Positions 11,165-20,013 of a stretch of DNA of 20,013 bases are shown here, in pieces. The notes beneath the pieces were generated by a model. It had not been told where the DNA came from. It saw nothing but the letters and a program-made list of their open reading frames with translations, and ran no database searches. The position numbers and the translations under genes are program-made. The DNA is from a virus, in IMG/VR virus record IMGVR_UViG_3300038305_000126, positions 1 to 20,013 of that record; one strand, 5' to 3'. Position 1 is the first letter of the stretch, and each line of letters opens with the position of its first letter.

Positions 11165-11908
11165 TTAACCAATAAAGTTATATACAAGTGGTTGAAGATT
11201 TTGAATGGACTCTTCTTCCATACGTTCTCTTTCGGTACGTGCCTCTTGTAAAATTTGTTCTCCGTTGAACTGAACTCCACCAACAAGTTGCATACCTGTG
11301 AACTTAGTTAGGTTGAGACCCCATTGTTCACGAACTAGTACAGAGGAATAGTTTTGTAACCAACGATCACCCCAGACATCAGGATAAGTTCCTTCATCAA
11401 TGATGTCATATGCTTCGATGATAATATAATCACCAGGCACAAAGAATTCTTTGGTTATGTCTATAAAGAGTTTGTTTACATGTTTATTGTATCTAACCAT
11501 TGGTTGACCAACAAGCATGTCTTGGAGTAATGTCATGTGCGACATTGTCATGTAATAATTTGCAACGTCATACCCACTAATATCGTTGACGTTGTTTAAA
11601 ACATATTGATATGGAACATTGAACATACCTGCACCTGCAGACATGGATGATTTCATATCAAATACTTTTGAAATACCCAATAGATTTTGTGGTAGAGGAA
11701 AATATCCGTTGTCGATATCGTCTTGTGTGATTTGATGTTTCAGATAAACGAGTTGACTTCCATTGTAGTGGTAGTCTCTCCAAAAAGAAACAGCTTCATC
11801 TACACGATCCTCGACTTGTTCGTCTGAGACGTTAACCTCAATAACTGGTGCACCAATTTTTCTTAAGATATATTCGATAAATTCTTGTCTAGTTACTGGC
11901 TGTGCCAT
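11165..11908 (-). CDS. 13: Neck protein gp13
   Basis: This protein has 247 residues (T4 gp13 is 309). It binds the portal after packaging, closes the head and recruits gp14. The N-terminus MAQPVTRQEFIEYILRKIGA with VEDRVDEAVSFWRDYHYNGS (about 31-50) is conserved in marine T4-like gp13. Also visible are FPLPQNLLGISKVFD, SGYDVANYYMTMSHM and the aromatic YIIIEAYDIIDEGTYPDVWG block (about 162-181). The C-terminus is GEQILQEARTERERMEEES then LQPLVYNFIG. ATG at 11908 is preceded by AAGGGAC, and a perfect late promoter lies 35 bases upstream. This promoter marks the start of the core T4 block after the non-core cassette. Confidence 0.95.
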   Translation of the reverse strand: MAQPVTRQEFIEYILRKIGAPVIEVNVSDEQVEDRVDEAVSFWRDYHYNGSQLVYLKHQITQDDIDNGYFPLPQNLLGISKVFDMKSSMSAGAGMFNVPYQYVLNNVNDISGYDVANYYMTMSHMTLLQDMLVGQPMVRYNKHVNKLFIDITKEFFVPGDYIIIEAYDIIDEGTYPDVWGDRWLQNYSSVLVREQWGLNLTKFTGMQLVGGVQFNGEQILQEARTERERMEEESIQNLQPLVYNFIG

Positions 11909-11942: not shown

Positions 11943-11950
11943 TATTTATA
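11943..11950 (-). promoter_or_regulatory. T4-type late promoter for gp13-gp14-gp15
   Basis: The minus strand reads TATAAATA, the exact late consensus, 35 bases upstream of the gp13 ATG. The TAA stop of the nucleotidyltransferase-cupin gene (11948-11946) is embedded in it. No terminator is visible between the cassette and gp13, so cassette transcripts may also read into the neck genes. Confidence 0.85.
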
Positions 11951-12707
11951 AAGAACGGCGCTCTATGTCCTCTTCACTGAGAGTATTTCCTTGCCATACT
12001 TCAATAACTTTGACAGGAACAGAACCAACATTGGTTGCTTTATGCCAAGTTTTGACAGGTATGTCAATACTGTCACCTCTTTTATATATCTTTGAGGTTT
12101 TGTATTGATTTTGAAATTCCAAATCCATTTCAAGTTCACCACTAACAATATGCCAGTGTTCTGAACGAATAAAGTGACGTTGATCTGATAGAGATTTACC
12201 AACATCAATTGAAAGTTCTTTAACTCTCCAATAACCGTTTGTATCAAGAACAGTATAAGTTCCCCACAATCGAGTTACCTTTGGGTTTTTCCATTCCTTT
12301 AAGATCCACGACGAAGAGTTTTTCTTATCTTCCCCACCAATACCAAAAGCAAATTCTACTTTATCGTAAATCATTTCTGGTATATTTTCTTTTGTACGAT
12401 CTCCACCATTGGCAAAGACTACAGTGTCACTTCCTCTTTTAGTAGATAGTATTTGAAAGATTGCATTACATGCTGTATCGTCATCATCATTAAATCCAAT
12501 CACTTGATCGACACAACCCAGTGCTTCAATAATATTACATCGTTCATGGAAGGGCATAAATGATCTACCCTTTTTGCGTGTCAACCATTCATCTGAGTTT
12601 ACTGCAACCACGAGTTTGTCTCCAAGTTCTCGTGCCGATTTAAACATCGCAATGTGACCCGAATGAAGTGGATCAAATCCACCTGATACGATTACAATCT
12701 TACTCAT
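11946..12707 (-). CDS. Nucleotidyltransferase fused to sugar-isomerase-type cupin
   Basis: I choose ATG 12707 (after AAAGGAAAG), which makes an ATGA overlap with the previous gene and gives 253 residues. Residues 1-140 are a HIGH-superfamily cytidylyltransferase of the RfaE2/TagD kind. They include VSGGFDPLHSGHIAMF with nucleotide-binding HSGH at 15-18, VAVNSDEWLTRKKGRSF, the MPFHERCNIIEALGCVD block and SSSWIL (131-136), close to the usual C-terminal motif of the fold. Residues 141-253 resemble the cupin of type II mannose-6-phosphate isomerase. They show RLWGTY (146), RSEHWHIVSGELE (181-193), IPVKTWH ending at His222, and VIEVWQGNTLSEEDIERR. Likely metal ligands are Gln176, His178, Glu183 and His222. 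It probably makes or activates a nucleotide-linked sugar or polyol. The substrate is not determined by the sequence. Confidence 0.9.
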   Translation of the reverse strand: MSKIVIVSGGFDPLHSGHIAMFKSARELGDKLVVAVNSDEWLTRKKGRSFMPFHERCNIIEALGCVDQVIGFNDDDDTACNAIFQILSTKRGSDTVVFANGGDRTKENIPEMIYDKVEFAFGIGGEDKKNSSSWILKEWKNPKVTRLWGTYTVLDTNGYWRVKELSIDVGKSLSDQRHFIRSEHWHIVSGELEMDLEFQNQYKTSKIYKRGDSIDIPVKTWHKATNVGSVPVKVIEVWQGNTLSEEDIERRSL

Positions 12708-13924
12708 TTCTTTCCTTTCATCATGTAGTCCCAAAAGAAATTCTTTGCATCAGACTTAATAAGTCTTTGAGGAATGTTATCAATGATGTCTCTATGAACA
12801 AACCAATCTTCGTATTCTACGTCTGGTCTAAAGGATATATTCTGTGCTACAATTTCATATCCTGCGTCTCTCATTATCTGTCTAGCTTCTTGACGAATTG
12901 CATCATCTAACCTATACGCATCATGTTCAAACTGAACCACATTGAATTTATATCTATGGAAAGGCATATTGCGCAATACTTGGATAGATGTTTCATCAGT
13001 ATCTATCTGTAAGAAGTCAATCGTATTTTCCATACAATGTTTAACGAGAAGATCTTCAAAATCGATCTCTAGTGCATTGGCATTGATAATAGTATTGGAT
13101 CTACGTTGTGCGAAGTCATATGCAAGGTGCGCAGACCATTCAATAGAAATACCTTTCCAATCAAATTCAGTTTCTAAGAGTGCAGTGTTGTTGTGAGTAA
13201 AAGGATTACCTGCACCAATCTCTAAGTATGTACCTTTACGTTTACCATCAAGACACGCAAGAACAAACATATCTTGGAAGTGTTTAGAATAGTTTTTCTC
13301 AACATCTTCTATACCTTTAAACGGTGCAACAAATAAATCTTTGTCATTTTTACTGTAAGTCGTCGCATCTGGCCATCCAATGTTATTCAGAATACCAATG
13401 ATGTATTCGTCAAATGATTTGTCAGCACGAAAGGGTCTTCTATAAAGTAGATCAAAGAACATCTGTCTACCATATTCAACTCCTGAGATTGACCATGACG
13501 CACTCGCCCGTAAGAACCACAGTTCTTTTTCACCAGGCCAATCAATACCAATATCTTTCTTGTCTTTGAATTCAAGACCAAGTAATGCATGGTTAAGACA
13601 CATACGCCAATCTGTAGTCTTCTCTCCATGTTTGGAAAGAAAGTAATGCGCTTCTGGTCTAGTAGGAAGGATACTCACTGCGTGTTGTAACAACCCTAAC
13701 ACAGTGTAGTTGCGTCTCTCTTGCCTTGCATATGCAAGTCCTGCGTAGATCATACACTTATATTGTAGTTCTTTATCGTCATCTTCAAGATCAGCGCATC
13801 GAATATAAAACGATATTGCTGCCGCACCATTCTCTAGTTTATCATACTCACGTGCAAGATCAAACATTTTATAGGTGTTCTTTGGATCGAATACATGTTC
13901 ATTAACTAATTGTTGCAAATTCAT
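12704..13924 (-). CDS. TPR-like domain plus FkbM-family methyltransferase
   Basis: I choose ATG 13924 (406 residues, GGAGAG upstream); a TTG at 13930 is the alternative. Residues 1-190 are helical with TPR-like pattern, such as AGLAYARQERRNYTVLGLL (61-79) and SILPTRPEAHYFLSKHGE (84-101), like the repeats attached to many bacterial glycosyltransferases. Residues 220-390 are a SAM-dependent methyltransferase of the FkbM type. They show YLEIGAGNPFTHNNTALLE (233-251) as the SAM loop, KGISIEW (267-273), DFLQIDTDE (303-311) and NVVQFEHDAYR (328-338). FkbM enzymes typically O-methylate sugars or glycans. The C-terminus reads NFFWDYMMKGKK. It starts two bases after the previous stop and overlaps the next gene (ATGA), so the cassette is tightly coupled. 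The methyl acceptor is unknown. Confidence 0.9.
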   Translation of the reverse strand: MNLQQLVNEHVFDPKNTYKMFDLAREYDKLENGAAAISFYIRCADLEDDDKELQYKCMIYAGLAYARQERRNYTVLGLLQHAVSILPTRPEAHYFLSKHGEKTTDWRMCLNHALLGLEFKDKKDIGIDWPGEKELWFLRASASWSISGVEYGRQMFFDLLYRRPFRADKSFDEYIIGILNNIGWPDATTYSKNDKDLFVAPFKGIEDVEKNYSKHFQDMFVLACLDGKRKGTYLEIGAGNPFTHNNTALLETEFDWKGISIEWSAHLAYDFAQRRSNTIINANALEIDFEDLLVKHCMENTIDFLQIDTDETSIQVLRNMPFHRYKFNVVQFEHDAYRLDDAIRQEARQIMRDAGYEIVAQNISFRPDVEYEDWFVHRDIIDNIPQRLIKSDAKNFFWDYMMKGKK

Positions 13925-13926
13925 AA

Positions 13927-14961
13927 TCAAGCTCTCTCCAAAAATTCTGTAAATACGTTGCCAGGAATTTCAAGAATGAAAGTTGCATTATCCTGTAATC
14001 CATAAGAGATGTACACTTTATTATTGTGGAACATCATTCCAGTTGCGAACTCAATATGAAATTGATTGCCTGTCACTGGATCTGTTTGTGTTCCCATAAA
14101 GTGGAATTCTTGAGTGTGATGTACAATGTTCCAATCATTGTCCCAAACAATCGCACGATGGACGTAGTGACCATCCTTACGACCAAATACATCTTTACCT
14201 AAATCAACTTCATGTGATATTGTAATTCTTTGTTCATCATTAAGACGAAGAACTTGCGTACCACCACGAAGATCCCTTGGCATCTTTCTTTTATTTTTTT
14301 CATCAAGAACGACTGTCTCTGTAGTACCTTCATCAATGTTAAACTTGATGACTTCTGTGGGATTAGTCCACTTGACAAAGTGGTAAGGCATGTCTAGAAT
14401 AGGAACCCAGTTCTTTTCACAATAAGTTTTATCTGGTGGTGGTGCAGGAATTGGATGACGAGAAATTTCTTTCCATTCTCCATCAATCCAGTCAATCTCT
14501 TGCATTTCCATGCGACCCTTACCATGTTCATCATAGCAATCACGACGAACACCACAAAGGAAGAGACGATCATCCCAAGAGAACAAACGACCATCTTCCA
14601 GTCCAATAAATGTCCAAGTGGGATCTGTGTCTAATTCAGATGTGTTGATACGACCTGCATGTTTGATCTGCATATTCTCATCAAGTTCAACCATAATGTT
14701 ATAAGTTGTAAGAGTAACATCATTTTCTGGATGAATATATGCAAGAGGTCCGAATTGGTGTGGCCATTTCTTACCTTCACTGTGATACAGAGTATAATTG
14801 ACATGCCGAATATTCATGAGGATCTTTCCATTATGCATGTAAATGGAAGGATTCATGATCCCTGTTTCGCCAGTCAATTCTGAGGGTAAGGTAATGGGGT
14901 GGAGTTTACCACCCCTCTTTAGGGCAAATGTAGCAAGCCCATATAGATGCATGTCGTGCAT
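13927..14961 (-). CDS. GH130/GT108-like five-bladed beta-propeller protein, likely glycan-active
   Basis: This 344-residue protein has the pattern of beta-propeller glycoside phosphorylases and hydrolases (GH130) and the related mannosyltransferases (GT108). It shows repeated blade-type strands such as NPSIYMHNGKILMNIRHVNY (37-56), FIGLEDGRLFSWDDRLFLCG (118-137) and HIEFATGMMFHNNKVYISYG (302-321). GLEDGR (120-125) corresponds to the GxEDPR motif of GH130, with Gly in place of Pro. CEKNWVPI (181-188) is a further conserved-looking motif, and GLQDN (321-325) lies near the end. No signal peptide or membrane segment is visible, so it acts in the cytoplasm. ATG 14961 has GGAGG four bases before it; ATG 14952 is less well placed. 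It is the first gene after a near-ideal sigma70 promoter. Whether it transfers, phosphorolyses or hydrolyses sugars cannot be told. Confidence 0.85.
   Translation of the reverse strand: MHDMHLYGLATFALKRGGKLHPITLPSELTGETGIMNPSIYMHNGKILMNIRHVNYTLYHSEGKKWPHQFGPLAYIHPENDVTLTTYNIMVELDENMQIKHAGRINTSELDTDPTWTFIGLEDGRLFSWDDRLFLCGVRRDCYDEHGKGRMEMQEIDWIDGEWKEISRHPIPAPPPDKTYCEKNWVPILDMPYHFVKWTNPTEVIKFNIDEGTTETVVLDEKNKRKMPRDLRGGTQVLRLNDEQRITISHEVDLGKDVFGRKDGHYVHRAIVWDNDWNIVHHTQEFHFMGTQTDPVTGNQFHIEFATGMMFHNNKVYISYGLQDNATFILEIPGNVFTEFLERA
14896..14915. other. GC-rich hairpin near the start of the beta-propeller gene
   Basis: GGGGTGG and CCACCCC form a perfect 7-bp stem with a 6-base loop. On the mRNA it spans codons 16-22, about 45 bases after the ATG. 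It lacks a following U-run on the minus strand, so it is not a typical terminator. It could affect translation or mRNA stability, or simply reflect the Gly/His/Pro codons used. Confidence 0.35.
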
Positions 14962-14995
14962 GACACCTCCATAATTTAGTGTTCAAATTTATACC

Positions 14996-15024
14996 ATTAT
15001 ATCACATCAAATGAGGTTTGTCAA
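14996..15024 (-). promoter_or_regulatory. Host sigma70 promoter driving the glycan cassette
   Basis: On the minus strand TTGACA (15024-15019) is followed by a 17-bp spacer and TATAAT (15001-14996), with an extended -10 TG one base before it. All twelve core bases match the bacterial sigma70 consensus at the best spacing. The -35 overlaps the TGA stop of the gene upstream (15023-15021). Transcription should begin near 14989, about 28 bases before the cassette ATG. In a late region this implies expression by unmodified host RNA polymerase. A TATAAATT box at 14993-14986, close to the late consensus, lies just downstream. Confidence 0.85.
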
Positions 15025-15359
15025 GACCAAGGTGCTTGTCTAACAATAGTATTTTTCTTATCAATTCTGCGTTCGATAATGTTGTCAATTTTGAGGATCT
15101 CACCATCAGTAAGTTTGTCAGTCAACCAAGTAACAACTTGATCTTCTGTCAGACTAAAGAAATTAACAAATTCATCTGTAGATTTGTCGACTGCGGTAAA
15201 CCATGAACTGCCTAGGAAACTGTGAGTGACCCCATCAGAATCTGTGCCTACTCGTTTCCAAGTAACACGCACAACAGAGTTTTGAAGGACATCACCATTT
15301 TCATTGGTCTCGTCCTTCGTCTCCATGTTCACAATTTCCCAAACATAGTTGATTGACAT
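15021..15359 (-). CDS. Small conserved phage protein, second of a paralogous pair
   Basis: This protein has 112 residues. It starts MSINYVWEIVNMETKDETN and ends RQAPWS. It shares with its upstream neighbour (15370-15795) an N-terminal YxWxI-type strand, KDETNxxG, a W followed by GTxSxG, the FxxLTExxVxxW helix and a terminal PW. It resembles a family of 100-140 residue proteins encoded next to virion genes in cyanophages and other marine T4-like phages (I believe DUF7936), whose role is not established. AAGGAAT precedes the ATG at 15359, ten bases after the previous stop. The stop codon overlaps the -35 of the cassette promoter. Placement after the fibre gene suggests a virion or fibre-assembly role, but that is inference. 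Confidence 0.85.
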   Translation of the reverse strand: MSINYVWEIVNMETKDETNENGDVLQNSVVRVTWKRVGTDSDGVTHSFLGSSWFTAVDKSTDEFVNFFSLTEDQVVTWLTDKLTDGEILKIDNIIERRIDKKNTIVRQAPWS

Positions 15360-15369
15360 GGTTTATTCC

Positions 15370-15795
15370 TTAATCAGGTGCCGCTTCACTAGCTGGATCT
15401 GGTTCTGCATCAGCATCTGCTTCAGCATCAACAACTGGTGCCCAAGGAAGTGCTTTTGCTTCAATTTCTTCACTTTGACCGAATTCACGTTCAATTTCTT
15501 CATCCAAACGTTCGGTGATGTGGGCAAGATAAGCACCATCTGCTTCTACAATGGATTGAATCCATCCTGTGACCGTTTCCTCTGTCAAATCGTCAAATGC
15601 GACGAAAGATCCTGCAGGCACGTTTGCCGCAGAAAGAGGTGTTGCACCAGACCAAGATGCAGATTGACCTGCAGAGTTAGTACCTGTGATTGTCCAATAG
15701 GTTTGATATACGGCACGTGCTAATGTTGCGCCTTCGTGGTTTGTCTCATCTTTAAGTTTGAGACTGTTAATGCTATAGCTATAAGTGTATGACAT
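15370..15795 (-). CDS. Small conserved phage protein, first of a paralogous pair
   Basis: This 141-residue protein starts MSYTYSYSINSLKLKDETNH. The core (about 1-115) has the same plan as the next gene: N-terminal strand, KDETNxEG, GTNSAGQSASWSG, FDDLTEETVTGWIQ, then a helix (HITERLDEEIEREFG) and ALPWAP. After ALPWAP it has an added low-complexity acidic tail rich in Asp, Ala, Glu and Pro (about 120-141). It is probably a member of the DUF7936-like phage family (from memory). ATG at 15795 has GGAGAAAT upstream, and an AATAAATA late-promoter-like box lies 33 bases before it. The function is unknown; position after the fibre suggests a small virion protein or fibre accessory. Confidence 0.87.
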   Translation of the reverse strand: MSYTYSYSINSLKLKDETNHEGATLARAVYQTYWTITGTNSAGQSASWSGATPLSAANVPAGSFVAFDDLTEETVTGWIQSIVEADGAYLAHITERLDEEIEREFGQSEEIEAKALPWAPVVDAEADADAEPDPASEAAPD

Positions 15796-15826: not shown

Positions 15827-18800
15827 TTATTTATTCAAAAGCATGTTTTTCAATTCTGCAATCTCTTCACGAAGTTCTGAGACTTCTTCCTTGTATTTAT
15901 TATCAACTTCTTTAACTGCTTCGATAAGTAATGATGTGATTCGTTCGTAATCGACTGTTAGGTAATGATTATCATGTACCGCAGCCAGTTCTTTTTGTTC
16001 GTCATGTGAGAGTTTTTCGAACTCTTCTTTTGCTTCTTTCTTGTCCCATTCTTTACCGTCACGTTCTTCAAGTGTCTCTTTAAATGCAAGACGTGCTTTC
16101 TGCATGTTGTAATTGGCATTGAAAGGTGCTTCGTTGACGACTTCTGGAAGTACTGCTTCGACCTCTTGTGCGATAACACCAACTTCGTGCATCTTAGTCG
16201 GGTGGAAGTCGTATTCCTCTGTAATGTTTTGTACCCAGTCGTACTCAACACCACGCATCTTATGAAGTTTATCGAGCGCTTCGGTGATAGGTGTTACGTT
16301 TTCTTTCAAACGTCCATCAGATGCATATGCAACAATGTTACCAGTCGCAGAGACTGCACCGTTTGAACCAGACAACTGAACACGAGCGTCACCGTCTGCA
16401 GAAACATAGAAACCCCAACCAGACTGACCAGACAAACTAAAGAAGGATGCGTTGGTGTGCGCATAACCATAACCATAGTGGTTTGATAGACCAGTACCAG
16501 ACGGACGATAGTTGTAACCGATAGAGTAACCAGGCGATGGATACGCATCTGTGTTTAGACCACCAGAGTTTGAACCGTGACGACCAATGAAACCACCACG
16601 TGATTCTGCGTTGGTTGCACCAAAGTGGATAGCACCATTGACTCTCATAGATGTATCAGACGCAGGGTTCACATAGTATGAAGTACTGTTCAGATCGTAG
16701 AAGATTGGAGAACGTGATGATCTCTCTGCACGCCAGTAACCTGAGTCTGCACGAGCCTCCCATCTACCATTATAGTATAGGTAGGTATAAGAGTTCTCAT
16801 ACATGTAAACTGCCCACTCGCCGTTGGCATGTTGAAGTCCAAAGTGTTGACCATCATCATCCCAGTAGATACGTCCACAAGCGGTAGAGTTACTATCCCT
16901 AAAGATAAGTTCACCGTGGTCAGAGTTGTTGGAACGAAGACTGATAGTGTCAGAATCATCATCATACATATCGAAACCATCGTTCCATGATATGTTATTG
17001 ATGTTAACTGAGTTCATACGAGAAGTTGACGCAGGATCTTGGTAGTAACCTGTGTTGTTTCTATCATAGAAGATTGTCGCACGAAGATCAGTTGGCCACA
17101 GATCTCTGTTGTTTGATGCCATTACGTATGATGCAGTACGAGACGTACGCTGAGTACCATAGTTGGTTGTACGGAACCCGACTGCCCAACCGTCACCCCA
17201 GCTTGTAGAGAAACTACTGTAACCAGTATGAACGTTAGTAACTTCTACCTGTGGATATGTCCAGTTAGAGTTTGTATCACCAATACAAACCATATGACGA
17301 GAACCGTCATCACACCAACGAATTGTGTACGGACCATCATCATCCTCAGAAAGCTGTGTACAAGAAACGTTTGTCCAACGACCACTTGAATATGCGTAAC
17401 CACCAATTCTAAACTGATGCATACGACCAGTATTGTATTCGTAAATGTTAACAGTGAAGTGCAACATGGTGTTACCACCACGTCTGCTAGTTGGTAAGTA
17501 AATAGTACATGCACCGTTGATACTTGAAGACGAAGTAGTATATGTACCACCATTTGGCATAGCAAATCTACGTTCGGCACCATCATATAAGTTACGTACT
17601 CTTTGATAGTTGTGGTAAGATGTACTTGCTTGGTTGGTGTAGTAACCAGTATTGTTTAGATCATAGAAGATTGGAGCACGTGAGGATCTCTCAGCACGCC
17701 AGTAACCTGAGTCTGCACGAGCTTCCCATCTACCATTGTAGTAAATGTAGGTATACGAGTTTCTGTTTGCATACAAAATCCACTCATTATCGACATCGTT
17801 GTAGATACCAACTTGGTTACTATCTGCAGACATGAATACATATCTGTCATTAATAGAGTAACCTTCCCATCCACCACGACCACCACCTTGAACTGCAACA
17901 GTACCGTAGTTACCATTTGGAAAATCCATATATGCATCATTGGCATTATCATACGCAAAGTACAAACGGTTTGTACGTAGTGTGTTCAAACGTGAAGTTG
18001 ATGCAGGATCTACATAATAACCAGTGTTATTTCTGTCATAGAACAGGGGTGAACGAATGTCAGAGATGTGATCCAAATAGTCAGTATTGAAACGACCATA
18101 TTTCGTAGTCTGATACCACCATCCCATCATCTCTGTACTGTCAGAACTTGAAAGGTTAGAGTGAACTTCTGTGCGACCCTGTAAACGGATATAGTCAGAA
18201 GATCCAGTACCATCGTTGTCAACACCGATAACCATTGCGGCGTTTTCACCAGTGTTATTGAAGTCTGGATCAAACGTGATGTAACCGTAATCAGATGGTG
18301 CGTTAACACCAGAACGGAAGTACAGTGTTACAGGTGCATCATTACCTGACCAGAATTCTGCGGCAACGTTGTTTAGATAGTCAGTACCTGTAACGTCATA
18401 AGATGAGTGAGAACCTGCAGAGTCATTTTGACGTGCTTTAAAGTACGCTTTACCGTTAAAGTTAACAGTATTGAATGTAGATGTTCCTGCAAAATCACCG
18501 TAATAACCTGTGTTGTTCAAGTCATAGAAAATAGGCGCACGAGACGAACGTTCTGCTCTCCAGTAACCGTTATCCGCACGGGCTTCCCATCTACCATTAT
18601 AGTAAATGTAGGTGTATGAGTTACGTGCTGAATAAAGAACCCACTCGTTTTCAATACCAGTTCTTAGACCGAAGTGGTTATCATCATCCCAGTAAATACG
18701 TCCACACGCAGTACTGTTCGAGTCTCTGAAGATGATCTCACCGTTGTCACTGTCATTCGAACGAATAGACAATGTGTTTGCGTCATCGTCATAAATGTCG

Positions 18801-20013
18801 AAACCATTGTCAAACGATAAGAAGTTCATCGTTACGTTTGCGAAACGTGAAGTCCCTGCAAAGTCACCATAGTAAGCTGTGTTATTGCGGTCATAGAAGA
18901 TGTTTGCACGGAATGATGATTGCGCATAAGAGTTACCATCTGCCATTGCTTGGAATGCCCAACCAGAGATATTACCTGTTGCGGCACCATGTTGACCAAC
19001 GTAGAAACCTGTTGACCCAGTAGAGTTATTATTGTTCGAGTCTAGGTTAAAGAAAATATCGTGATAAGAGTTAAATCTCAAATCATCAGTAACACCACCA
19101 CCATTATCACGAGATGCAATTCCATGATATGTTGAATCGTCACCATAGAATGTAATCCAGTCACCACGATCTGCCATGTTGATCTGATCAACAGTGACAA
19201 CATTTAGACGAGAAGTAGATGCAGGATCTGCGTAGTAACCTGAGTTGTTTCTGTCATAGTAACGTTGTGCATATGCGTTTCTGTTTGTAAGGACATCACC
19301 ATCACCACGGATGATCATGTTCCATGCACCAGCCATACCACCGTCACGGAACGAGATATCTTCACCACCAGATGTGGCGATAATGAAATGCGCATCATTT
19401 GTTTCAGTTGCACCAATGTAACCACGATGGTTACCAGAACTTGTGTAGAAGTGCGCTTGACCACCTGACCAGTATTCTGTTTCGTTAACACGGTTCACGT
19501 TCATACGTGATGTAGACGCAAAGTCACCATAGTAACCAGTGTCACTTGTGTCATAGAAGATTGGGGATCTCATAGATCCTTTTGCTTCTGAGTAACCTGT
19601 ACGGATTAGGAAACGAGTAAATGAAGACTGTGACCAACTGACACCAACACCATAGTGTGGGTTTTCTTGGTTGTCATAGTAACCAAAGTCAAGTGAGTTC
19701 GCTTGATAGTTCGCAGTACCAATGTTCCATCTACGACGATTGTTGGAAGAATCTTTTCTTGAACGGAAAGAAATTACCGCACCGTGATTGGTGTTTGTAC
19801 CCCAAGAGTTCAGAGTGAAATGTGGATACGCATGTTGGTTACCAATTTCGATCTGTGGTCTGTTAGTATCCAATGTTGTAACTGGATTAGAGTTAGACCC
19901 AACTTTCAGATACGAATCACTTGCACTTAGTCTCAGTCTATTGAAACGTGAAGTTGACGCAAAGTCACCATAGTAAGCTGTGTTGTTGTAGTCGTAGTAA
20001 ATCGGTGAACGAA
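15827..20013 (-). CDS. Giant modular tail fibre with C-terminal S74 chaperone domain (5' end outside window)
   Basis: This is a receptor-binding fibre of at least 1394 residues. An apparent start at 19873 is only an internal Leu (TTG) codon: the frame stays open to the window edge and the residues beyond it contain another copy of the same repeat, so the true start is outside. Nine copies of an RSPIFYDxNNTGYYxDPASTSR-like module punctuate the chain, separated by aromatic and Asn/Ser/Gly-rich beta segments. A distinct domain with four Cys lies at about 17100-17590. From Ser-Asp at 16321 the last 164 residues form a Peptidase S74-type intramolecular chaperone: ASDGRLKENVTPI, ALDKLHKMRGVEYDW, GVIAQEVEAVLPEVV and VDYERITSLLIEAVKEV, then a coiled coil. 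Such domains trimerise fibres and then cut themselves off just before the Ser. Fibre identity is secure; the receptor is unknown. Confidence 0.95.
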   Translation of the reverse strand, partial: RSPIYYDYNNTAYYGDFASTSRFNRLRLSASDSYLKVGSNSNPVTTLDTNRPQIEIGNQHAYPHFTLNSWGTNTNHGAVISFRSRKDSSNNRRRWNIGTANYQANSLDFGYYDNQENPHYGVGVSWSQSSFTRFLIRTGYSEAKGSMRSPIFYDTSDTGYYGDFASTSRMNVNRVNETEYWSGGQAHFYTSSGNHRGYIGATETNDAHFIIATSGGEDISFRDGGMAGAWNMIIRGDGDVLTNRNAYAQRYYDRNNSGYYADPASTSRLNVVTVDQINMADRGDWITFYGDDSTYHGIASRDNGGGVTDDLRFNSYHDIFFNLDSNNNNSTGSTGFYVGQHGAATGNISGWAFQAMADGNSYAQSSFRANIFYDRNNTAYYGDFAGTSRFANVTMNFLSFDNGFDIYDDDANTLSIRSNDSDNGEIIFRDSNSTACGRIYWDDDNHFGLRTGIENEWVLYSARNSYTYIYYNGRWEARADNGYWRAERSSRAPIFYDLNNTGYYGDFAGTSTFNTVNFNGKAYFKARQNDSAGSHSSYDVTGTDYLNNVAAEFWSGNDAPVTLYFRSGVNAPSDYGYITFDPDFNNTGENAAMVIGVDNDGTGSSDYIRLQGRTEVHSNLSSSDSTEMMGWWYQTTKYGRFNTDYLDHISDIRSPLFYDRNNTGYYVDPASTSRLNTLRTNRLYFAYDNANDAYMDFPNGNYGTVAVQGGGRGGWEGYSINDRYVFMSADSNQVGIYNDVDNEWILYANRNSYTYIYYNGRWEARADSGYWRAERSSRAPIFYDLNNTGYYTNQASTSYHNYQRVRNLYDGAERRFAMPNGGTYTTSSSSINGACTIYLPTSRRGGNTMLHFTVNIYEYNTGRMHQFRIGGYAYSSGRWTNVSCTQLSEDDDGPYTIRWCDDGSRHMVCIGDTNSNWTYPQVEVTNVHTGYSSFSTSWGDGWAVGFRTTNYGTQRTSRTASYVMASNNRDLWPTDLRATIFYDRNNTGYYQDPASTSRMNSVNINNISWNDGFDMYDDDSDTISLRSNNSDHGELIFRDSNSTACGRIYWDDDGQHFGLQHANGEWAVYMYENSYTYLYYNGRWEARADSGYWRAERSSRSPIFYDLNSTSYYVNPASDTSMRVNGAIHFGATNAESRGGFIGRHGSNSGGLNTDAYPSPGYSIGYNYRPSGTGLSNHYGYGYAHTNASFFSLSGQSGWGFYVSADGDARVQLSGSNGAVSATGNIVAYASDGRLKENVTPITEALDKLHKMRGVEYDWVQNITEEYDFHPTKMHEVGVIAQEVEAVLPEVVNEAPFNANYNMQKARLAFKETLEERDGKEWDKKEAKEEFEKLSHDEQKELAAVHDNHYLTVDYERITSLLIEAVKEVDNKYKEEVSELREEIAELKNMLLNK
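15828..15835 (-). promoter_or_regulatory. Late-promoter-like box before the paralog pair
   Basis: The minus strand reads AATAAATA, one base from the T4 late consensus, 33 bases upstream of the ATG at 15795. Its last two bases are part of the fibre gene TAA stop, the same stop-in-promoter layout as before gp13 and before the gp67-position gene. Confidence 0.55.
15830..16321 (-). other. Peptidase S74 intramolecular chaperone domain of the fibre
   Basis: Residues from SDGRLKEN to the end (164 aa). Self-cleavage is expected between Ala and Ser at 16321, as in endosialidase-type fibres. Between the LPEVV strand and the VDYERI helix is a charged insertion of roughly 55 residues (about 15960-16130), rich in Lys and Glu, longer than in the minimal domain. 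The final segment, EEVSELREEIAELKNML, is a heptad coiled coil. Confidence 0.85.
16691..17085 (-). repeat. Duplicated fibre block, downstream copy
   Basis: Contains, in order, the FYD...TSR module, a segment with GFDMYDDDSDT and RDSNSTACGRIYWDDD, then a segment with NSYTYLYYNGRWEARAD, GYWRAERSSR and PIFYDLN. The same order occurs at 18520-18915. A third copy of the GRWEARAD part alone lies at about 17660-17766. Confidence 0.85.
18520..18915 (-). repeat. Duplicated fibre block, upstream copy
   Basis: Same order of three segments as 16691-17085: FYD...TSR module, GFDIYDDDANT with RDSNSTACGRIYWDDD, then NSYTYIYYNGRWEARAD and GYWRAERSSR. The two blocks are nearly identical in protein over long stretches, showing segmental duplication within one gene. 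Confidence 0.85.

Follow-up and report, generated by a model that had tools for sequence, protein, structure and literature searches.

A conserved three-gene cassette beside the tail fiber genes of T4-like aquatic phages may build a mannose-type glycan

The β-mannoside enzymes of families GT108 and GH130, including MPT-1, MPT-2, and MPT-4 of Leishmania, the mannoside synthase Uhgb_MS, and the β-1,2-mannobiose phosphorylases, share a five-bladed fold and an ED-type motif. The Asp residue of the GH130 ED(P)R motif (Asp142) is invariant and is the candidate acid, and replacing it with Asn abolishes activity (PMC4599007). Phage glycan genes located near fibers are likewise already known. Such genes are mixed with fiber genes in the host-recognition clusters of T4-like marine pelagimyophages and cyanomyophages (PMC7029224), and mycobacteriophages carry enzymes that glycosylate the virion at the capsid and tail tube, according to work cited in PMC12619734. 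Furthermore, the ManC/AlgA type II phosphomannose isomerase (PMI)/GDP-mannose pyrophosphorylases join a nucleotidyltransferase to a PMI-type C-terminal cupin. Here we describe a cassette that encodes a β-propeller, a TPR-FkbM methyltransferase, and a nucleotidyltransferase-cupin (NTase-cupin) fusion. It lies in a stretch of 20,013 nucleotides from IMG/VR record IMGVR_UViG_3300038305_000126 (the whole stretch is called the window below), which is a 20-kb piece of a T4-like virus whose clear genes are all on the minus strand.

The three genes are intact minus-strand open reading frames (ORFs) spanning positions 11946-14961, as the initial annotation of this DNA had placed them. The propeller gene (13927-14961, 344 amino acids) is followed after a 2-base gap by the TPR-FkbM gene (12704-13924, 406 amino acids), which shares an ATGA stop/start overlap with the NTase-cupin gene (11946-12707, 253 amino acids). 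The favored starts are the ATG codons at 14961, 13924, and 12707, over upstream TTG codons. The cassette is flanked on one side by a fiber gene and two DUF7936 genes and on the other by gp13, at the position that wac occupies in T4.

We tentatively propose, with confidence just short of even, that this cassette is a viral unit that builds a mannose-type glycan, and that the acceptor is most likely the phage's own fiber or adhesin encoded next door. In this scheme, the cupin domain would interconvert fructose-6-phosphate and mannose-6-phosphate, or act on a related sugar phosphate, and the fused nucleotidyltransferase would make the activated sugar donor. The propeller would then transfer the sugar with inversion, from a nucleoside diphosphate sugar or a sugar-1-phosphate, and the FkbM domain would cap it by O-methylation while the TPR domain holds either a partner enzyme or the protein being modified. 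The activation, transfer, and methylation steps suggested in the initial annotation thus form a plausible chain, in which every substrate, the acceptor, and the direction in which the propeller works are inferred.

The propeller is central to this proposal. Searches of PDB sequences yielded no real match, whether the query was the single protein or a profile, and therefore its fold was settled by structure comparison. The AlphaFold model (predicted local distance difference test [pLDDT] 84.6; predicted template modeling score 0.88) has a five-bladed GH130/GT108-type fold, and its top PDB match is 6q50 (Foldseek expectation value [E] 1.4e-8), the GT108 mannose phosphorylase MPT-4 of Leishmania. 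PDB matches ranked 1 to 44 include the GDP-Man-dependent MPT-1/MPT-2 and the mannoside synthase Uhgb_MS; all of them either bear GH130 or GT108 names or lack annotation, and most of the unannotated structures have a sequence match to a PF04041 protein. The likeness to GH130/GT108 that had been claimed is upheld by fold and PDB ranks, but membership is not: the protein scores 16.7 bits against the PF04041 GH130 model, below the family cutoff of 26, and thus belongs to a related family. Among 29 propeller relatives, only 5 match PF04041 at E ≤ 0.05 (best E 4.1e-4). This propeller family is new and related to GH130/GT108.

Residues E122-D123, R125, R139-R140, K183, R232, H250, and D324 are invariant in the 29 propeller sequences, and E122-D123-x-R125 aligns with the AEDAR motif of a protein above the PF04041 cutoff. 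This bridging protein, from a chlamydial metagenome-assembled genome (MAG), scores 26.5 bits against PF04041, just above the cutoff, and matches the phage propeller profile (E 1.4e-6) with its AEDAR, KNWVP, RGSS, and final KDD motifs in register. In a direct profile comparison, a canonical GH130 gave only a weak match, toward the C terminus. Depositors have named single members of the family 'beta-mannosyltransferase' and 'MGP protein'. We also observed, in a chlamydial MAG (L125:4723-7923), a fusion of GT2, TPR, and propeller parts, after which a GH130-scoring protein is encoded; these might be cellular relatives of the propeller family. In distant relatives (L027:496-2352, L028:1442-3976, and L030:1034-3250), the propeller is fused to a radical S-adenosylmethionine (SAM)/SPASM domain, to FkbM and radical SAM domains, or directly to the TPR part.

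The propeller is predicted to be a β-mannosyl transferase or a synthetic phosphorylase. In a viral structure library, it is matched best by proteins of giant viruses, Pithovirus among them, at template modeling (TM) scores of about 0.7 and up to 0.73, and other giant-virus matches have names that point to fusion with a fucosyltransferase, LicD, or pyruvyltransferase domain. Synthesis is favored because some giant-virus relatives are fused to glycosyltransferases, and a chlamydial MAG relative fused to GT2 and TPR was counted on the same side. Trimming of a sugar, which had been offered as an alternative to transfer, is less likely given this and given the mannosyltransferases and the mannoside synthase among the closest folds. 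The related idea of a catabolic unit, in which the propeller phosphorolyzes a host β-mannoside reserve or wall glycan to mannose-1-phosphate and the NTase-cupin feeds the product into metabolism, seems improbable to us. Most characterized GH130 enzymes are indeed phosphorylases (PMC8950772), and the invariant basic residues (R139, R140, K183, R232, and H250) could bind phosphate. However, breakdown leaves the co-conserved methyltransferase, the TPR domain, and the adjacency to fibers unexplained, it does not suit the fusions to glycosyltransferases in giant-virus relatives, and no transporter or glycosidase lies nearby in the window.

The second and third proteins fit a glycan pathway. The TPR-FkbM protein (AlphaFold pLDDT 90.9) comprises TPR repeats at about residues 1-185 and an FkbM-type SAM methyltransferase at about residues 190-400, and it scores 27.6 bits against PF05050 (cutoff 22.7). 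Foldseek matches it to SAM-dependent methyltransferases and to TPR superhelices, among them the ones in O-GlcNAc transferase and SPINDLY; the resemblance of the TPR part to these protein glycosyltransferases is generic and was not used as proof. The NTase-cupin protein exceeds the cutoffs for both PF01467 (60.2 bits; cutoff 21) and the PMI cupin PF01050 (80.1 bits; cutoff 23.6). Its nucleotidyltransferase half is HIGH-type, with conserved HSGH, GGDR, and KNSSS motifs, and its cupin half is of the type II PMI type, with conserved RSEHW and IPxxxWH motifs; the cupin HxH has a variable second His, which raises the possibility that a PMI metal ligand has been lost, and the rest of the motif is intact. 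The fusion fails the full bifunctional model TIGR01479, which includes an NTP_transferase domain, matching only its C-terminal part (positions 357-460 of 467; E 1.2e-20; 73.8 bits against a cutoff of 372.95). It also matches TIGR02199, the HldE/RfaE domain II model, at E 2.4e-19 and 69.6 bits, under the equivalog cutoff of 181.5.

The mannose theme derives from the PMI cupin and from NTase-cupin homologs (in L137 and L168) that adjoin genes for GDP-mannose 4,6-dehydratase, a cytidylyltransferase, and glycosyltransferases. These neighbors support, although they do not prove, a role for the NTase-cupin in making a mannose-related donor. A separate short gene for a HIGH-type nucleotidyltransferase of about 140 amino acids was observed at L071:5200-5619, L084:7151-7576, L098:5476-5901, and L128:1979-2425, and in the first three of these it lies after gp15.

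Co-conservation supports the view that the three genes form a unit. Each cassette protein, and also gp13, served as a query against IMG/VR, and the loci were mapped jointly and tallied without redundancy. Because each search returned at most 80 matches, the fractions apply to the query's closest relatives. At close loci, defined by a propeller identity of at least 55%, the TPR protein comes after the propeller in 79/79 cases and the cupin gene in 74/76, with DUF7936 ahead of it in 73/73. At distant loci, the corresponding fractions are 26/28 for the TPR protein, 1/28 for the cupin gene, and 0/23 for DUF7936. Since the TPR protein is kept at distant loci while the cupin gene is mostly absent there, the propeller and TPR genes make up the core, and donor making belongs mainly to one lineage. 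NTase-cupin genes with enough upstream sequence have an adjoining propeller in 68 of 91 cases; the other 23 lie elsewhere, some of them in sugar clusters.

Evolutionary distances agree with this picture. Across 37 loci, those of the propeller and the TPR-FkbM protein correlate at r = 0.91, compared with 0.70 and 0.67 for their correlations with gp13, and the NTase-cupin correlations are lower, at 0.75 and 0.65. The latter gene looks to have been partly exchanged, and at L007 the propeller is 87% identical while the NTase-cupin is just 62% identical. Where it could be computed, the ratio of nonsynonymous to synonymous substitution rates for the cassette is about 0.05-0.24, which indicates purifying selection. 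Gene order kept across dozens of diverged loci under such selection bears out the tight coupling noted earlier, which is not a matter of chance. It had been argued that independent occurrence of the genes, or structures unlike those of glycan enzymes, would count against a co-conserved glycan unit; co-occurrence proved strict, the folds are those of glycan enzymes, and distant relatives have glycan-enzyme genes as neighbors.

The cassette is present at 39 of the 41 gp13-lineage loci with enough upstream sequence. Its earlier description as an insertion calls for qualification, since the cassette is the normal state in this lineage. At least 572 viral loci encoding the propeller family were confirmed among up to 600 pattern matches, and two isolated cyanophages (DSL-LC02 and S-SCSM2R) carry the propeller-TPR pair. 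Across a widely distributed group of T4-like aquatic phages, most of which are uncultured, almost every member has the cassette beside its tail fiber genes. A cyanobacterial host is not supported, given that no psbA gene was found in ten cassette-bearing records, all of which are possibly fragments. Three cassette contigs of differing coverage (L117, L118, and L119) fall in one Rhodobacteraceae MAG bin, which is a weak hint of an alphaproteobacterial host, or else a case of mis-binned viral contigs.

The proposal that the glycan is destined for a fiber or adhesin draws on gene neighborhood. The tail fiber gene of the window (C-terminal part, 15827-19873, minus strand; PF13884 60.6 bits, cutoff 22; PHROG tail fiber matches) lies in a frame that stays open to the window end at 20013 and contains repeated ..YYDxNNTxYYxDPxxTS.. 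motifs and a C-terminal S74 chaperone. It is followed on the same strand by the genes for DUF7936 proteins b (15370-15795; PF25590 44.5 bits, cutoff 27) and a (15021-15359; PF25590 56.3 bits). S74 or repeat fibers lie upstream of the cassette in the clade of the window, and collagen-like or S74 fibers lie 38-89 bp upstream of the propeller at distant loci (L261, L311, L312, L313, L314, L317, L320, L323, and L029). In DSL-LC02, the propeller-TPR pair is located among tail fiber genes, and a DUF7936 protein is also encoded between such genes. None of the three cassette proteins has a predicted membrane segment, which suits a cytosolic protein substrate.

Relatives add genes for GT25, GT11, GT2, radical SAM, DUF6445, and 2-oxoglutarate (2OG)-oxygenase proteins. 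Several of these gene types modify proteins in other systems. In one sub-clade (L015, L022, and L025), the DUF7936 pair is immediately preceded by radical SAM genes and a gene for a 2OG-Fe(II) oxygenase, a hint that the locus encodes additional modification chemistry. Arrays of adhesin-like ORFs, many with MAIKI..GT.VI N termini, precede gp13 at L016, L020, L068, L071, L084, and L111, and those tested had no Pfam match.

T4 glucosylates its DNA. Phage glycosyltransferases that hypermodify DNA have also been described (cited in PMC12619734), and together they are a precedent for a cassette that would protect phage DNA from restriction by adding sugar and methyl groups to its bases. We nevertheless regard this function as highly improbable, as the cassette resides in the structural block beside fibers, no hydroxymethylase or other base-modifying gene was seen in the window, and no known DNA glucosyltransferase is among the listed fold matches of the propeller.

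A different target is suggested by the promoters. The sequence TTGACA-17-TATAAT, a perfect σ70 promoter match, occurs once in the window (0.03 expected), at 14996-15024 on the minus strand in the gap before the propeller gene, beside a weak T4-late-like motif, TATAAATT, at 14986-14993 on the same strand. Among relatives, 109 distinct upstream stretches include 14 with a perfect copy, versus 5 of 3,000 random stretches. The -35 element overlaps the stop codon of DUF7936a, and this overlap could help to conserve it in the closest relatives. Perfect copies occur in other sequence at L020, L057, and L115, and a near-perfect one occurs in DSL-LC02. The gp13 neck (head-tail adaptor) gene (11165-11908, minus strand; phrog_211, E 2.3e-38), which forms the right boundary, is preceded by its own exact T4-type late promoter motif, TATAAATA, at 11943-11950 on the minus strand, overlapping the cassette end. 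The 37-bp gap before gp13 has this late motif and no hairpin by eye; no terminator scan was run. These matches suggest that the cassette may be transcribed separately from the late genes. The layout resembles that of a moron, with a σ70 promoter of its own (by sequence match alone) between structural genes and no evident terminator. As with morons, the cassette is also absent in some relatives, such as L104, whose gp13 region lacks it; L111 is ambiguous in this respect because its flank is filled by adhesin-like genes.

It is therefore possible, if somewhat doubtful, that the enzymes act on the host, making and methylating a sugar for lipopolysaccharide, O-antigen, or capsule so that competing phages no longer adsorb to the infected cell (superinfection exclusion), as a moron expressed by host polymerase. 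The perfect σ70 promoter, which lies amid the late genes, has no second match in the window, and is enriched in relatives, speaks for this explanation, as do the restart of gp13 from its own late motif and the recurrence of NTase-cupin genes in sugar-nucleotide and glycosyltransferase clusters. The glycosyltransferases of pelagimyophage host-recognition clusters have been read in this way (PMC7029224). Conversely, the cassette encodes no membrane protein, flippase, or lipid-carrier enzyme, the propeller-TPR pair follows fiber genes in unrelated genome contexts, and many relatives have, at a place similar to that of the σ70 box, a T4-type late motif instead; several relatives carry the exact TATAAATA in the gap before the propeller.

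Several points weigh against glycosylation of the phage's own fibers. The acceptor is assigned by neighborhood only, the Pfam GH130 score of the propeller is under its cutoff, and the σ70 promoter suggests expression independent of the late genes, which would suit a host-directed role. Moreover, a large sub-clade of close loci, including L022, L212, and L249, has no recognizable large fiber within 6 kb upstream and only small structural-looking genes downstream. Other loci retain only the cupin (L019, L304, and L305) or neither domain of the fusion (L016, L205, and L293), and therefore donor making is not always encoded. The initial annotation had offered both virion decoration and host-surface alteration, which sequence does not separate: adjacency to fibers favors the former, and the σ70 promoter the latter.

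The remainder of the window is a T4 late block, as had been recognized, with PHROG matches to gp13, 14, 15, 17, 18, 19, 20, and 21 and the scaffold in T4 order. The portal protein is closest to those of Sinorhizobium phages phiM12/M7/M19 (~54%), followed by cyanophages (~48%). A 96-amino-acid ORF at 2379-2669, between the gp21-type protease gene and a small acidic gene, has no PHROG match.

In open-license full texts, we found no description of the fixed trio, the GH130/GT108-related phage family, the PF01467-PMI fusion, or the sharing with giant viruses. Relative to the initial annotation, the σ70 promoter, the near-universality in the lineage, and the independent use of NTase-cupin genes in sugar-nucleotide clusters are new. 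We speculate, and consider it rather unlikely in this full form, that this is a dedicated phage system that mannosylates tail fibers or collagen-like adhesins by means of a GT108-like family shared with giant viruses, with built-in donor synthesis and O-methyl capping, and that it is fixed in a large uncultured T4-like lineage. If fibers are the target, then these aquatic phages would chemically tune the proteins that choose their hosts, a layer that host-range prediction from genomes overlooks. A host-surface target would instead make the cassette a common, undescribed barrier to superinfection. Either way, an uncharacterized family of carbohydrate enzymes exists in at least several hundred viral loci.

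Comparison with the described systems sets the locus apart from each of them. Relative to the GT108/GH130 β-mannoside enzymes, the phage propeller has 10-14% identity over the match, a Foldseek TM score of about 0.5, and a score below the PF04041 cutoff; it carries the virus-specific invariant motifs GVRRD, YCEKNW, and RGGS and is nearly always paired with a TPR protein. The pelagimyophage and cyanomyophage clusters hold mostly GT8-type genes, whereas the propeller/TPR-FkbM/NTase-cupin order is fixed across the lineage described here. Mycobacteriophage virion glycosylation involves other enzymes, hosts, and target, and the virion is a putative acceptor in the present system. Unlike that of ManC, the phage nucleotidyltransferase is a HIGH-type PF01467 domain (RfaE/TagD-like) rather than an NTP_transferase. 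Finally, the giant-virus proteins that give the best viral structure matches (Pithovirus, Solivirus, Indivirus, and Satyrvirus), some of them fused to glycan enzymes, share 12-20% identity with the phage propeller and come from a different virus realm.

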